Shown: one piece after another, positions 1,503-7,523 of the stretch
How positions within the stretch are numbered: position 1 is the stretch's first letter
Layout of the letters: each line of letters starts with the position of its first letter
Translations under genes and position numbers: made by a program
The notes under the pieces: generated by a model
Told to the model about the DNA's origin: nothing
The model's input: only the letters and a program-made list of their open reading frames with translations
Database searches by the model: none
From: Candidatus Amunia macphersoniae
GTDB taxonomy: Bacteria; Chloroflexota; Dormibacteria; Aeolococcales; Aeolococcaceae
Direction of reading: 5' to 3'
NCBI GenBank assembly: GCA_016464795.1
Contig: JAEKNN010000063.1
Span: 1 to 64,000, forward strand
Length of the DNA: 64,000 bases

Positions 1503-2544
1503 GTGCAGACATCCTCATCGGATCTCTCCCGCCTGGGGTGGGATGACCTGTTCGGTTCGGCCTTCACCACGCTCGCGCTTGCCGACTCCGTGCCGGCTCG
1601 GATTGCGCTGGTGTCCTCCACCAGCGTGGTCGTGCTCGACAGCGCCGGTCGCCGCGACGCGGTTCTCTCCGGCGCCGTACGCGCATCGCCGCCCGAGGGT
1701 GGGGTCACCACCGGGGACTGGGTGGCCATCGAGGACGGGACGGTGGTGGCCGCGCTGCCCCGCCGCACAGTGCTGCTCCGGCGCGGCCGGCGGGGCGTCG
1801 ATGGCGCAGGCGGTGGCCGCCAACGTCGATACCGTCTTCATCGCCGTGCCCCTGGGCCTGGGCGTTGGGGTGCGCCGGCTGGAACGCAGCCTGGCAATGG
1901 CCTGGTCGAGCGGTGCCCGGCCGGTGGTGTTGCTCAGCAAGGCTGATCTCAGCCTCGACCTGCCCACTGACCTCGACGCTGCTGGCGCGGTGGCCGGCGG
2001 CGCTCAGGTGATCGCTGTCAGTGCTCAGGGCTGGGGCCTCGACGCGCTGCGCGCCTGCCTGCCACCGGGGCAGACCGGTGCCATCGTGGGACCGAGTGGG
2101 GCGGGCAAGTCCACCCTGATCAATCAGCTCTGCGGAGGTGACCGCCTGGCCACCGCCGAGGTTCGGGCCGACGGTCGTGGCCGCCACACCACCACCAACC
2201 GCGAGTTGGTGGAGCTGCCCGAGGGGGCGATGCTGATCGACACCCCCGGCATGCGCGAGATGGGCGTCTGGGATGCCCAGGCTGGGATCGATGCGGTCTT
2301 CGGGGAGATCGGAGAGCTCGCCGCTCGGTGCCGCTTCAGCGATTGTGCTCACCACGGCGAGCCGGGATGCGCAGTGCAGGCGGCGGCGCAGGACGACCCG
2401 GTGATCCTCGAGCGCCTGGGCTCACTGCGCAAGCTCGAGCGCGAGCAGCGACATCTCGCGGGACAGGTGGACGCGCGCCTGCGCGCGGAGTCGCGCCGGG
2501 AGCGGCGCGTCAGACGCGCCCCGAGCCGTCGCGCCGGTAGGTGA
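1503..2544 (+). CDS. rsgA: Ribosome small-subunit-dependent GTPase RsgA, interrupted by a +1 frameshift
   Basis: RsgA is a circularly permuted GTPase that checks late 30S subunit maturation. The OB-fold part (LGWDDLF to LPRRTVLLR) is read from GTG 1503, which has GGAG 6 bases upstream. The GTPase part (from AAGGASMAQAVAANVD) is in the next frame. One extra base near 1782 would account for the switch. In the second frame the permuted order G4 (LSKADL), G1 (GPSGAGKST), G3 (DTPGM) is complete, followed by the zinc motif CRFSDCAHHGEPGC. All motifs are intact, so either this is a sequencing error or the gene broke very recently. A GTPase-only product could start at ATG 1801. The 3' end overlaps the convergent dioxygenase by 35 bp. 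Confidence 0.85.
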
Positions 2545-3151
2545 CGGTAATGACCCGCCGCGGCCTGCCGGAGGTGTTGGCGGTGCCGCTGTGCCACAGG
2601 TGCGAGCTGAACACCAGGGCGTCTCCGGCGGGGCAGGTGATGCACACCTCGTCGCGATGGCGGGCGCGGGGGTCGGACAGGTTCTTTGGCGGAATCGACG
2701 CCGATCGGTGGCTGCCGGGGACGACGCGGGTGGGGCCGTTCTCGGCTGAGACGTCGTCGAGGTAGAACATCGCCTGGGCCTGCTGATCGCGGCCCGGGGC
2801 GATCGGGCCGGCCCAATCCACGTGCAGCGCCTGCTGAGCCGTCCGGCCGACCGGGTTGCGCATCACCGCGCTGATCGGAGCCGGGTTGCGCCCGAGCAGC
2901 TCGCAGACCGCCTCGAGCACTGGCGGCGAGGTGCGCAACGCCTCGACGGGCTCTCCGAGCACGCCGGCGTCGCGGATCCAGACGGTGCCGGCGCGGACAT
3001 CGACGCCGTCGCCGCCGGCTGCGACCGCCGCGTCGATCGCAGTCCTCAGCGCCTCGAGGGCGTCCCGGCCAACAGCCTCACGGATCAGAACGTATCCACG
3101 AGTGGTGATCGCCGCCATGACGCGCCCAGGATACCGGCGGTCGTCCGTCAC
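2510..3151 (-). CDS. Phytanoyl-CoA dioxygenase (PhyH) family Fe(II)/2-oxoglutarate oxygenase
   Basis: This is a 213-aa non-haem iron oxygenase of the PhyH family, which hydroxylates small molecules using 2-oxoglutarate and O2. The iron ligands are visible: HVD at residues 110-112 and the distal histidine in SSHLWHSGT (184 or 187). The RPRR arginine that would bind 2-oxoglutarate lies about ten residues on. The strand VVPGSHR is also typical. At 213 aa it is shorter than most PhyH proteins (about 250-300 aa) but the core is complete. An internal ATG at 3119 (MAAITTRGYVLI) is an equally good start. The substrate is unknown and the neighbours give no clue. Confidence 0.8.
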   Translation of the reverse strand: MTDDRRYPGRVMAAITTRGYVLIREAVGRDALEALRTAIDAAVAAGGDGVDVRAGTVWIRDAGVLGEPVEALRTSPPVLEAVCELLGRNPAPISAVMRNPVGRTAQQALHVDWAGPIAPGRDQQAQAMFYLDDVSAENGPTRVVPGSHRSASIPPKNLSDPRARHRDEVCITCPAGDALVFSSHLWHSGTANTSGRPRRVITVTYRRDGSGRV

Positions 3152-3247
3152 ATCGGCCCCGACTGATCGCTCAGCTCGGATCTCCTCGAGGTCACATCAG
3201 GCGGCCCTGATTTTGAGCCGGTCACATCCGCCAGCCCTCCTTCGATG

Positions 3248-3331
3248 AACCGGCAACAGTTTCAAAGGGGTTGCGTACTTGTAACGGTCCCTGCTACATT
3301 TGCGCTACTTGACGCGTTCGGCTCAATCACT
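3248..3331 (+). promoter_or_regulatory. Conserved promoter region of surface-stalk gene 1
   Basis: About 80 bp here closely match the region upstream of the second stalk gene (5061-5142). Shared blocks include AACCGGCAACAGTTTCAAAG and, later, TTGACGCGTT. A promoter is visible: -35 TTGCGT (3271-3276), an 18-bp spacer and -10 TACATT (3295-3300). Conservation well beyond the promoter boxes suggests a shared regulator site. Confidence 0.6.
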
Positions 3332-3363
3332 CACCACCCACACCAACTCAAAGGGGCAAGGCA

Positions 3364-4416
3364 ATGAACGGGACTCTCAAGCTGGCAGCGGCGGGGCTCT
3401 CTGCCACCATGGCGATGGCAACGTTTGCGACGGGCGTCCTCGCCTGCAGCACGCAGTCGGGCAACGACCAGGGCGGTGACCGCGGGACCACCCGATCCAC
3501 CGTGAGCTGCCGGGACTCCGGCCAGTCCGGCAACCACAGTGGCCAGAACAACGACCGAAACGGTGACTGCAAGAGCGGCGACAAGGGCAACAAGGACAAC
3601 TCTGGCGACAAGACCGGCGACAAGGGTGACAAGTCCCCGGCGCCGGCGCCCTCGTGCTCGGGCAATCCCCAGCTCAGCAACGTCAGCTACCTCCTCGGCG
3701 GCACCAAGACGGTGAGCGACCTCCGCGGTCACGTGACCTCCGGCGAGAGCGTCAAGGTCACCTTCACCGTCCCCGCCAACTGCGCGATGGACCTCGTCCT
3801 GGCCTCGTACCAGGCGCCGCTGCCGTACTTCACCGAGCAGAGCGCCCCCCAGCAGGTTCTCTTCGACCATCAGTCCGCCACCAACATCCCTGCCGGCGTC
3901 CACTCCTTGAGCGTCAACGTCCCCGGCTGCATGTTCCAGGTCGACTTCGCCCACGGCGCGCTGCTGACCACCCTGGGCTCCTCGCGCTCGACCGACTACG
4001 CCGATCGCCTGATCAGCGCTGACAACGGCGGCAGCACCTCGTGCAGCGCCGTCGCCGGCACCCCGACCCCGGCGCCAACCCAGACCCCGGCGCCGACCAA
4101 CACACCGGCGCCGACCAACACTCCCGCGCCAACCCAGACCCCGGCGCCGACCGGAACCCCGGCCACCACCCCGACCCCCGCAGCGGTGACCACACCGGGC
4201 GCCCCGCAGTCCACCCCGACGGCACCCGCTGCCCCGATCGGCGCTGTCCAGGCGGCCACCGTCAACGCTCCTCCAGCGGCGCCCTCGGGCGTGCTCGGCC
4301 TCACCACCTCGACCCCGATGACCGGTGTCAAGCTGGCTCTGGGCGGAGCCACCATCATGGTGCTGGTCGGCTTCATCCTCATGGGCCTCGCCGGGCTCCG
4401 TCGCGAGGTCCTCTGA
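3364..4416 (+). CDS. Surface-stalk protein 1: signal peptide, one Cys-containing beta-type domain, PT-rich stalk, C-terminal anchor
   Basis: I do not recognise a named family in this 350-aa exported protein. A signal peptide (residues 1-28) is followed by a polar Asp/Asn/Lys/Gly-rich segment to about residue 96. Next comes one roughly 125-aa domain (GNPQLSNVSYLLGG to GGSTSC) with conserved PANC and VPGCMFQVDF cysteines. A Pro/Thr-rich stalk of near-perfect PTPAPTQTPAPTNT repeats (about 233-275) follows. The protein ends in a transmembrane helix (VKLALGGATIMVLVGFILM) and a short basic tail, with no LPXTG. This is a wall-spanning, membrane-anchored design. From base 3655 onward its sequence is identical to the 3' part of the next gene. 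Role unknown; adhesion or ligand display is inferred only from architecture. Confidence 0.8.
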   Translation: MNGTLKLAAAGLSATMAMATFATGVLACSTQSGNDQGGDRGTTRSTVSCRDSGQSGNHSGQNNDRNGDCKSGDKGNKDNSGDKTGDKGDKSPAPAPSCSGNPQLSNVSYLLGGTKTVSDLRGHVTSGESVKVTFTVPANCAMDLVLASYQAPLPYFTEQSAPQQVLFDHQSATNIPAGVHSLSVNVPGCMFQVDFAHGALLTTLGSSRSTDYADRLISADNGGSTSCSAVAGTPTPAPTQTPAPTNTPAPTNTPAPTQTPAPTGTPATTPTPAAVTTPGAPQSTPTAPAAPIGAVQAATVNAPPAAPSGVLGLTTSTPMTGVKLALGGATIMVLVGFILMGLAGLRREVL

Positions 4417-4484
4417 CCCCACCGCGACCGAGCTGACCCCAGGAAGGGAATCCGGAGGCCGGGAGCACAGCGCTCCCGGCCTCT
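3655..4484 (+). repeat. 830-bp exact direct repeat, copy 1
   Basis: Bases 3655-4484 appear identical to 5723-6552 (constant offset of 2068). The repeat starts inside the coding region at the beginning of the Cys-containing domain. It covers the stalk, the anchor, the stop codon and the hairpin terminator, and ends four bases past the hairpin. Identity with no visible synonymous change implies recent duplication or gene conversion. Confidence 0.95.
4456..4482 (+). terminator. Hairpin terminator after stalk gene 1
   Basis: A perfect 10-bp stem (AGGCCGGGAG / CTCCCGGCCT) closes a 7-base loop about 40 bp past the stop codon. There is no U-tract, so it may act as a transcript-end stabiliser or weak terminator. 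Confidence 0.7.
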
Positions 4485-4696
4485 CCTGCGTGTTCACGCG
4501 GGCGAACGAGAACTGACACGATGAGGAGCGCACATCCTTCGATGGCAAACCGGAGCAGACGGCGGTGAGAGCCCTCTTCCTCCGCGAGCCGCAGGAGTTG
4601 CCGGACCTCATCTCAGCGGCGAACGCGGCCAGGCACGGTGTCGGAACTGCTCGCGCAGCAGCTTCGCCTGGCGGGCGGCTCAGCTCCAGCAGGTAG

Positions 4697-4930
4697 TCAC
4701 TGGTGCTGCAAGACCGAGTAGTGGGCGGCGCGGTTGCCGGGGCGCTGAATGACAGTCAGCAGGCCCTTGCGTGCCAGCCGGCTCAGCGTCGTCATGACCG
4801 TCGTGTAGGCGAGCTCCGGCATGAAGGTGGTCGCGGACCTGGGCGCTGGTGAACGCCTCGTGCAGCTCTCGGCGCCGGAGTGCCTGATTCAGTCGGCCGC
4901 GAGAGGCCCGAGGAGCGCAGCGCGGCCTCG
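4697..4930 (-). pseudogene. BlaI/MecI-type repressor remnant
   Basis: Reading the minus strand, three fragments in shifted frames match the winged-helix repressor family in order: LGPLAAD, then ELHEAFTSAQVRDHL, then ELAYTTVMTTLSRLARKGLL ending ...AAHYSVLQHQ and TGA (4697-4699). The first frame hits a stop directly after LGPLAAD, and another frame change is needed before MPELAYTT, so no intact product is possible. BlaI proteins repress surface and antibiotic-response genes and are usually paired with a BlaR1-type sensor protease, which is absent here. The flanking 4485-4696 holds nothing I recognise. Confidence 0.6.
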
Positions 4931-4956
4931 AGACCCTTCACCCGGCCCGGAGTCGA

Positions 4957-4974
4957 CTACGACACCTGTCGTAG
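4957..4974. promoter_or_regulatory. Palindromic operator, probable BlaI-type site
   Basis: CTACGACACCTGTCGTAG has perfect 8-bp arms around a CC spacer. It lies just upstream of the blaI-like remnant, where autoregulatory BlaI operators normally sit, and about 120 bp before the promoter of stalk gene 2. BlaI-type operators are short dyads of this general size. The link to the remnant and to the stalk gene is inferred. Confidence 0.55.
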
Positions 4975-5060
4975 CCAGGCGGGCGGGTCCTCTCGCTCAC
5001 GCGGGCAATGCCGAAGGCGCTTGTTGAGGACCCGTCACATCGCGGCTGGCTCCTCTGACG

Positions 5061-5142
5061 AACCGGCAACAGTTTCAAAGGGCTTGCGAAGTTGTAACGA
5101 TCCATGCTACATTCGCTGCAGTTGACGCGTTTGGCTCAATCA
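5061..5142 (+). promoter_or_regulatory. Conserved promoter region of surface-stalk gene 2
   Basis: This is the counterpart of 3248-3331. The -35 is TTGCGA (5084-5089), the spacer is 18 bp and the -10 is TACATT (5108-5113). The block AACCGGCAACAGTTTCAAAG is identical in both copies, while the surrounding bases have diverged. So the promoter is an older duplicate than the identical 830-bp 3' module. Confidence 0.6.
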
Positions 5143-5170
5143 CCACAACATCCAACCGAAAGGGGAAGAC

Positions 5171-6484
5171 ATGAACGCAGCAGTGAAGATGGCAGCGGCG
5201 GGGCTCTCGGCGTCCCTGGCGATGGGGGCTCTCTCGACGGGAGTGTTCGCACACGGTGACGGCAACAACGACCACGGCGGCGCCAACTGCCCGAGCGGCA
5301 ATGGCCTCATCCAGAACGTCTCCTTCACCACCACCAGCCACGGGGCCGGCTCCTCGCTGAGCGGCCGGGTCTCGTCCGGGGACCACGTGGTCGCCAGCTT
5401 CAGCGTGCCGGCCAACTGCGGCCAGGTCGAGGTCTCCCTGGTGTCCTACCAGGCCCCGAGCGCCTCGTTCGACGCCAAGACAGCCGATAAGCAGACCGTC
5501 TTCCGCCAGTCCCCAGCCGGGGCCACGTACGGCGCCGGAAATCACTCGCTGGCGGTGGACGTCCCCGGTTGCTACTTCCAGGTGGACTTCGTGCGCGGCT
5601 CCGTGATCCCGCAACTCGGGCCTGAGGGTTCGAGCAACTTCTACAGCCCCCAGGGACGCCTCCTCGCCGGCGCCAACGGCGGCAGCAAGTCCTGCACCGC
5701 GCCGAACCCCGGTCCCACCCCCTGCTCGGGCAATCCCCAGCTCAGCAACGTCAGCTACCTCCTCGGCGGCACCAAGACGGTGAGCGACCTCCGCGGTCAC
5801 GTGACCTCCGGCGAGAGCGTCAAGGTCACCTTCACCGTCCCCGCCAACTGCGCGATGGACCTCGTCCTGGCCTCGTACCAGGCGCCGCTGCCGTACTTCA
5901 CCGAGCAGAGCGCCCCCCAGCAGGTTCTCTTCGACCATCAGTCCGCCACCAACATCCCTGCCGGCGTCCACTCCTTGAGCGTCAACGTCCCCGGCTGCAT
6001 GTTCCAGGTCGACTTCGCCCACGGCGCGCTGCTGACCACCCTGGGCTCCTCGCGCTCGACCGACTACGCCGATCGCCTGATCAGCGCTGACAACGGCGGC
6101 AGCACCTCGTGCAGCGCCGTCGCCGGCACCCCGACCCCGGCGCCAACCCAGACCCCGGCGCCGACCAACACACCGGCGCCGACCAACACTCCCGCGCCAA
6201 CCCAGACCCCGGCGCCGACCGGAACCCCGGCCACCACCCCGACCCCCGCAGCGGTGACCACACCGGGCGCCCCGCAGTCCACCCCGACGGCACCCGCTGC
6301 CCCGATCGGCGCTGTCCAGGCGGCCACCGTCAACGCTCCTCCAGCGGCGCCCTCGGGCGTGCTCGGCCTCACCACCTCGACCCCGATGACCGGTGTCAAG
6401 CTGGCTCTGGGCGGAGCCACCATCATGGTGCTGGTCGGCTTCATCCTCATGGGCCTCGCCGGGCTCCGTCGCGAGGTCCTCTGA
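5171..6484 (+). CDS. Surface-stalk protein 2: signal peptide, two Cys-containing beta-type domains, PT-rich stalk, C-terminal anchor
   Basis: This is a 437-aa paralogue of the preceding gene. A signal peptide ends around VFAHG and is homologous to that of protein 1. It is followed directly by a diverged domain (NGLIQNVSFTTT to GGSKSC) and then by a second domain identical to that of protein 1. Both domains share the pattern V(S)SGD/ES...PANC, SYQAP, VPGC(Y/M)FQVDF and a terminal GGS-SC, so about 125 aa is the repeating unit. The Pro/Thr stalk and the anchor helix follow unchanged. Protein 1 has an Asn/Asp/Lys-rich linker where protein 2 has a domain. No homologue with known function comes to mind. 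Confidence 0.8.
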   Translation: MNAAVKMAAAGLSASLAMGALSTGVFAHGDGNNDHGGANCPSGNGLIQNVSFTTTSHGAGSSLSGRVSSGDHVVASFSVPANCGQVEVSLVSYQAPSASFDAKTADKQTVFRQSPAGATYGAGNHSLAVDVPGCYFQVDFVRGSVIPQLGPEGSSNFYSPQGRLLAGANGGSKSCTAPNPGPTPCSGNPQLSNVSYLLGGTKTVSDLRGHVTSGESVKVTFTVPANCAMDLVLASYQAPLPYFTEQSAPQQVLFDHQSATNIPAGVHSLSVNVPGCMFQVDFAHGALLTTLGSSRSTDYADRLISADNGGSTSCSAVAGTPTPAPTQTPAPTNTPAPTNTPAPTQTPAPTGTPATTPTPAAVTTPGAPQSTPTAPAAPIGAVQAATVNAPPAAPSGVLGLTTSTPMTGVKLALGGATIMVLVGFILMGLAGLRREVL

Positions 6485-6552
6485 CCCCACCGCGACCGAG
6501 CTGACCCCAGGAAGGGAATCCGGAGGCCGGGAGCACAGCGCTCCCGGCCTCT
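5723..6552 (+). repeat. 830-bp exact direct repeat, copy 2
   Basis: This is the second copy of the module at 3655-4484, including domain, stalk, anchor, stop codon and hairpin. Outside these limits the two loci differ at once (C versus G before, T versus C after). Confidence 0.95.
6524..6550. terminator. Hairpin terminator between stalk gene 2 and the convergent CitE-like gene
   Basis: This is the same 10-bp stem and 7-base loop as at 4456-4482. Here the distal arm runs into CTCTTTCGCATTCTT, a slightly better U-rich tail. It sits between convergent genes and could serve both. Confidence 0.7.
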
Positions 6553-6569: not shown

Positions 6570-7523
6570 CTAACCCGCCGCGCCGGCCTCCACCGTCTGC
6601 TGGCGCGGGGACGGTGTCAGTCCCGCCGCCCGGCCGCGCAGCTCGAACTGGGTGGCCATCTTGCGCGATGCCTCATCGATCATCTCGTCGCCGAGCATCA
6701 CCGCGCCGCGCCGCTCGACCTCGGTAGCGTGGCGGTAGGCGTCGAGGATCTCCACCGACCTGTCGAAGTCGGCCTGGGAGGGGGTGAACACCTCGTTGCA
6801 GGGCTCGATCTGGCCGGGGTGGAGCACCCACTTGCCGTCGTAGCCGAGCGCAGCAGCGCGACCGGCCGCAGCACGGAATCCCTCGATGTCGCGGATCAGC
6901 AGGTAGGGGCCGTCGACCACTTGGATGCCGGCCGCGCGCGCTGCCACGGCGAGCTTGAAGAGCACGTAGTGGAAGATGTCGCCGGGGTAGTTGTAGCTGT
7001 TGGCGACAGTCAGGTTGGGGAACTGCATGCCGGCGGAGAAGTCGGCCGGACCATAGGTGATGGTCTCGATCCTCTTGCTGGCGAAGGCGATCTCCTCGGC
7101 GTTCATGAGGCCGAGCGCGTCCTCCACCTGGGCCTCGATGCCGATGCCGCCGGAGGCGAGCCCAAGGGACTGCTCCAGGCTGCCCAGGGCGCGATCGACG
7201 AAGGCGATGTCGCCGGCGTTCTGCACCTTGGGCACCATGATGCAGTCGAGCACATCGCCCGCCCCGGTCACCACCTCACGGAGGTCATCGAGCGCGAATT
7301 GACTGCCGACCTGGTTGATGCGCACCACCCGCACCTTGCCCCGCCAGTCGTGGGTGCGCAGAGCCTCGACGATCTTGCTGCGCGCCCCCGGCTTCTCCAT
7401 GGGCGCGCAGGCGTCCTCGAGGTCGAGGAACACCTCATCAGCCGCCGCGCCGGCAGCCTTCTCCATCATCCGCGGGTTGCTGCCAGGACAGGCAAGAACA
7501 GATCGGCGCAGACGGGTCGGCAT
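6570..7523 (-). CDS. HpcH/HpaI aldolase / CitE-like CoA-ester lyase
   Basis: This 317-aa TIM-barrel lyase belongs to the CitE/malyl-CoA lyase family. These Mg-dependent enzymes cleave or form 3-hydroxyacyl-CoA esters such as malyl-, beta-methylmalyl- or citramalyl-CoA. Family motifs in order are RSVLACPGSN, the metal-binding FLDLEDAC, IMVPKVQNA, EAQVEDALGLMNAEEIA (second metal carboxylate), YGPADFSAGM and GKWVLHPGQI. No citrate-lyase alpha or gamma subunit is nearby, so a stand-alone CoA-ester lyase is more likely than citrate lyase. With the acyl-CoA dehydrogenase and CaiB-type transferase elsewhere in the window it suggests CoA-dependent organic-acid metabolism. The exact substrate cannot be told. 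Confidence 0.88.
   Translation of the reverse strand: MPTRLRRSVLACPGSNPRMMEKAAGAAADEVFLDLEDACAPMEKPGARSKIVEALRTHDWRGKVRVVRINQVGSQFALDDLREVVTGAGDVLDCIMVPKVQNAGDIAFVDRALGSLEQSLGLASGGIGIEAQVEDALGLMNAEEIAFASKRIETITYGPADFSAGMQFPNLTVANSYNYPGDIFHYVLFKLAVAARAAGIQVVDGPYLLIRDIEGFRAAAGRAAALGYDGKWVLHPGQIEPCNEVFTPSQADFDRSVEILDAYRHATEVERRGAVMLGDEMIDEASRKMATQFELRGRAAGLTPSPRQQTVEAGAAG

Follow-up and report, generated by a model that had tools for sequence, protein, structure and literature searches.

Two tandem genes for putative surface proteins lie close to the start of the window, that is, the 64,000-nucleotide stretch of contig JAEKNN010000063.1 from Candidatus Amunia macphersoniae that was analyzed here. 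Both genes are on the + strand and, by sequence comparison, are paralogs. Gene 1 (3364 to 4416) encodes 350 amino acids comprising a signal peptide, a linker, a domain here named D2, a Pro/Thr stalk, and an STPMTG motif followed by a hydrophobic segment and an RR tail. Gene 2 (5171 to 6484) encodes 437 amino acids with a signal peptide, a further domain named D1 (5282 to 5704, + strand), and then D2, the Pro/Thr stalk, the STPMTG anchor, the hydrophobic segment, and the RR tail. In place of D1, gene 1 carries a hydrophilic linker rich in Asp, Gly, Lys, and Asn (3448 to 3654, + strand) that gave no domain match. A previous reading of the sequence without database searches (here called the sequence-only reading) had described the two genes as differing in their first domains; the 5′ parts do differ, but gene 1 lacks a first domain and has this low-complexity linker instead. 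Each gene is preceded on the + strand by its own promoter and leader region, located at 3237 to 3363 for gene 1 (candidate TTGCGT-N18-TACATT) and at 5050 to 5170 for gene 2 (candidate TTGCGA-N18-TACATT), and sequence comparison revealed these two regions to be paralogous as well. The genes are separated by an intergenic spacer (4485 to 5049), and the pair is flanked by two genes on the − strand, which, from our reading of their sequences, we take to be a phytanoyl-CoA dioxygenase-like gene on the left (2510 to 3151) and an HpcH/HpaI aldolase or citrate-lyase-like gene on the right (6570 to 7523).

D1 and D2 are paralogous domains with about 44% amino acid identity. Searches of Pfam and NCBIfam gave no meaningful match for either of them, and a sequence-profile search of the PDB returned chance-level matches only. 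The domain fits no family in Pfam or NCBIfam, and a new family could be defined for it. A fold model of D2 predicts eight strands at moderate confidence (pLDDT 69), and a PDB fold search with this model yielded no match at an E value of ≤0.001, only generic beta-sandwich matches, e.g., to adhesin repeats. We tentatively regard the domain as Ig-like.

The C terminus of both proteins harbors a sorting signal (STPMTG...LRREVL) that consists of a TPxTG motif, a hydrophobic stretch, and a basic tail. Within about 1 Mb, such C termini were found in genes 1 and 2 and in one other gene only, and TPxTG-type ends were also found in proteins of relatives. Furthermore, the genome contains three matches over the cut-off to the sortase family PF04203, one of them with an internal TAA. 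As predicted from these features, genes 1 and 2 probably encode wall-anchored surface proteins. They share with sortase-anchored modular surface proteins the order of parts (signal peptide, Ig-like domains, Pro/Thr stalk, and LPxTG-type signal), the TPxTG motif followed by a hydrophobic segment and a basic tail, and the presence of sortase-family genes in the genome. They differ from them in that T replaces L at the first position of the motif, in that anchoring is a prediction here, and in that neither D1 nor D2 could be matched to a family in Pfam, NCBIfam, or the PDB sequences.

Direct comparison of 3655 to 4484 with 5723 to 6552 (both + strand, offset 2068) revealed an exact match of 830 bp with 0 differences. 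This bears out the earlier description of 830 bp that read as identical through the second domain, stalk, anchor, stop codon, and hairpin. The block contains D2 from its first Cys codon, the stalk, the anchor, the stop codon, and a terminator hairpin with the stem GAGGCCGGGAGC/GCUCCCGGCCUC, and it stops 1 base past this stem. The identity of the two copies thereby extends to silent sites, to the terminator, and to the rest of the untranslated 3′ sequence. Outside the block, identity drops at once on both sides to 15 to 55% per 20 bp. The left edge is located where the linker of gene 1 faces D1 of gene 2, the right edge where unrelated downstream DNA begins; both edges thus lie at heterology. 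The finding of 0 differences in 830 bp limits divergence to about 0.36% at most (95% upper bound). The 91%-complete draft genome contains two copies of the block only, and the block is the sole exact repeat of >93 bp in the 1.02 Mb of this draft that was sampled by taking 20 kb from the start of most contigs.

The homologous parts next to this tract show much lower identity, 85% and 74%, in contrast to 100% over the 830 bp. The first value was obtained for the promoter regions (3237 to 3330 versus 5050 to 5143, 94 bp), which confirms that the promoters have drifted, and the second for the first 80 nucleotides of the two genes, where the signal peptides start; these comparisons cover about 80 to 180 nucleotides. 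At the promoter-level divergence of 15%, the chance of finding 0 differences in 830 bp is ~1e-58. The spacer harbors a decayed, frameshifted copy of what is presumably a blaI-type repressor gene (4541 to 4975, − strand), with 78% DNA identity to an intact paralog (G000:C41:233-691). The latter is an intact open reading frame (ORF) of 129 amino acids with AYTTVMTTLSRLARKGLL, the frames of which are broken in the window copy, and it adjoins a gene that, again by our reading of the sequence, we take to encode a BlaR1/M56-type peptidase. The decay of the spacer copy and its 78% identity to the intact gene argue that the pair has been in tandem for some time. The duplication is therefore older than the homogenized tract, as indicated, on small samples, by the diverged promoters and signal peptides and by the decayed blaI copy between the genes. 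The same three features contradict a fresh duplication of the whole gene, and with it the very recent duplication that the sequence-only reading had offered as one explanation.

Furthermore, we analyzed whether the surface genes exist in related genomes. Ca. Aeolococcus gillhamiae (QHBU01000205.1, G002), a sister species of the same genus, is the nearest relative with such a gene; in its genome, one two-domain gene occupies the slot between the same dioxygenase and aldolase neighbors. Both flanking genes are conserved: the left one has an orthologous ORF (L032:2280-2888) with 72% amino acid identity, and the right one is 90% identical at the amino acid level to G002:C205:4565-5509. D1 of gene 2 is orthologous to D1 of the Ca. 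Aeolococcus gillhamiae gene (65% amino acid identity), and D2 matches D2. The tail shows 52 to 65% amino acid identity to this ortholog, with diverged third positions, and the two paralogs are hence closer to each other (tail 100%) than to the ortholog in the sister species. Each of the two promoters is about 65% identical to the Ca. Aeolococcus gillhamiae region. Because the promoters are 85% identical to each other, compared to about 65% to this region, the duplication seems to postdate the split from Ca. Aeolococcus gillhamiae, yet it is not fresh.

Two other genomes of the same genus have no surface gene copy at this locus, and a scan of genome contigs with gene 2 as the query found no relative. 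In genome G001 (L049, 2747-4771), the aldolase gene directly adjoins a DNA methylase gene; the genes that separate these two in the window, for the GTPase, the dioxygenase, and the surface proteins, are absent. In a wider sample of the phylum, the domain was detected in 15 of 400 genomes, usually in single genes with a low-complexity stalk. The single- and two-domain relatives within the same bacterial family (L032, L033, L034, and L035) share the domain, the low-complexity stalk, and the TPxTG-type anchor with genes 1 and 2 and differ from them in that one gene per locus was seen, without an identical tandem tail. In a distant genome of the same phylum (L235), two tandem surface genes with a related domain show about 75% identity in each of the two homologous stretches that were compared; a homogenized tail was looked for in both stretches and was found in neither. 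Such a pattern is the one expected from uniform divergence. The Pro/Thr stalks encoded by the L235 pair (2924-6108) are very long, and a conserved YTQGYWKNHP... domain is located at the C terminus.

Because diverged 5′ ends lie beside a 3′ end that is identical even at silent and untranslated sites, recent gene conversion between old tandem paralogs is, in our judgment, the best reading of the locus and a reasonably likely one, with the event deduced from one assembly. In the ancestor, the dioxygenase and aldolase genes would have flanked a single gene composed of a signal peptide, two Ig-like domains, a Pro/Thr stalk, and a sortase-type anchor, a state for which Ca. Aeolococcus gillhamiae is the one relative that serves as a model. 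This gene would have been duplicated as a whole in the present lineage, after which a blaI-like fragment may have become lodged in the space separating the two copies, where it decayed. In copy 1, a charged linker would now stand where D1 was lost, and both copies would have drifted at their 5′ ends. Later, homologous recombination of the RecA type would have copied all of the shared 3′ sequence, from D2 to the terminator, from one gene to the other, in whichever direction, and the conversion tract would have halted where homology halts, i.e., at the linker or D1 on the left and at the different downstream DNA on the right. As the edges of the block are the ends of homology, its module-like exactness needs no cassette or other special mechanism. 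The probable outcome would be two promoters and a long and a short protein that expose the same D2 on the same stalk and anchor. Among the explanations proposed in the sequence-only reading, gene conversion is thus the best-supported one, given the diverged 5′ ends and spacer, the identical 3′ end, and the single-gene slot in the sister species.

Gene conversion between paralogs is a known and fairly ordinary process. The bab genes of Helicobacter pylori are an example from a cultured pathogen for which many strains are available and the role of these genes in adhesion is known. Unlike babA/babB, the present locus belongs to an uncultured Dormibacteria-type genome and consists of two tandem genes, with one putative event in one assembly. 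Conversion and concerted evolution of paralogs have been surveyed across prokaryotes (PMC6053082); the feature that the present locus shares with such cases, babA/babB (PMC4552749) among them, is that paralogs of the same genome are over part of their length closer to each other than to orthologs of a sister species. The locus is a clear case of partial homogenization of tandem surface-protein genes in little-studied uncultured bacteria, with a sister species that keeps the single-gene state.

A possible, although clearly less probable, explanation is that the exact identity is a product of assembly consensus. The two tandem genes would be real, their tails would differ by up to a few percent, and these tails would have been merged in one path of the assembly graph that was printed twice; the 2068-bp units of spacer and gene 2 may then number more than one. 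The draft has the appearance of a short-read metagenome assembly, as its division into 72 contigs, their sizes, the presence of a 10-N gap, and the lack of any other exact repeat above the stated length in the sampled 1.02 Mb are typical of such data, and an assembly graph of this kind could resolve the simple loop formed by an A-R-B-R-C layout into two identical copies. It has been described that metaSPAdes, one example of such an assembler, collapses strain-like bulges and differences (PMC8021871). With a draft of this type, exact identity may therefore be overstated and copy number understated, and perfect repeats in metagenome assemblies generally require long reads before they are read biologically. 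However, merging itself requires near-identity, and the homogenization relative to the 15 to 26% diverged 5′ ends stands regardless. Moreover, both outer flanks are fixed by synteny and the contig has no N gap, which leaves the two-gene locus as the simplest path.

The layout also exactly fits an insertion flanked by direct repeats, with both edges of the block at heterology. Such an event could have been a single crossover that placed the 2068-bp segment of spacer, gene 2 head, and tail within an existing tail, or the promoter and linker of gene 1 could have captured a fresh gene 2 tail by fusion. We regard this as unlikely, since it requires a donor circle or, alternatively, an old head that lacked a tail but had a signal peptide of its own and a related promoter, and the paralogy of promoters and signal peptides, which points to the whole gene, makes conversion simpler. 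It is rather improbable, too, that the 830-bp direct repeats act as a live recombination switch by which cells lose or multiply the 2068-bp gene 2 unit. If this were true, the consensus assembly would conceal a population in which short-only, short-plus-long, and multi-long versions of the surface protein are mixed.

The sequence-only reading had further suggested variable heads on a fixed stalk, i.e., a cassette in which many alternative heads recombine onto one stalk and vary the exposed domain. A recombination-prone tail of 830 bp shared by both genes would be expected to permit deletion or exchange between them. Nevertheless, a variable-head cassette is very unlikely and was rejected, as there are two copies only and gene 1 has no head domain. 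Furthermore, relatives have one or few scattered genes, and it is the end of homology, not a special module boundary, that delimits the block. A system for phase or antigenic variation would call for several silent or alternative heads, but the 91%-complete draft contains only the two copies. That purifying selection alone has kept the tails identical since the old duplication is hardly credible: although the exposed domain and the anchor reside in the tail, the identity also includes silent sites and the untranslated 3′ sequence with its terminator, and the divergence of the tail from its Ca. Aeolococcus gillhamiae ortholog, third positions included, speaks against such a constraint.

Apart from the surface genes, the window contains a short ORF (about 1354 to 1422, + strand) upstream of an rsgA-like GTPase gene. 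The surrounding stretch (1342 to 1425) shows 89% DNA identity in Ca. Aeolococcus and 76% in genome G003, and the ORF and its counterparts read MAATVALLAHPTAVVPGPAAAQ, MAATVALLARPTAVVPGPAR, and roughly MAAAIARPASPSFIVPGPTV. Judging from the VPGP close to the stop codon and the GGAGGG that precedes the start codon, the ORF may encode a leader peptide with a possible role in regulating the GTPase gene.
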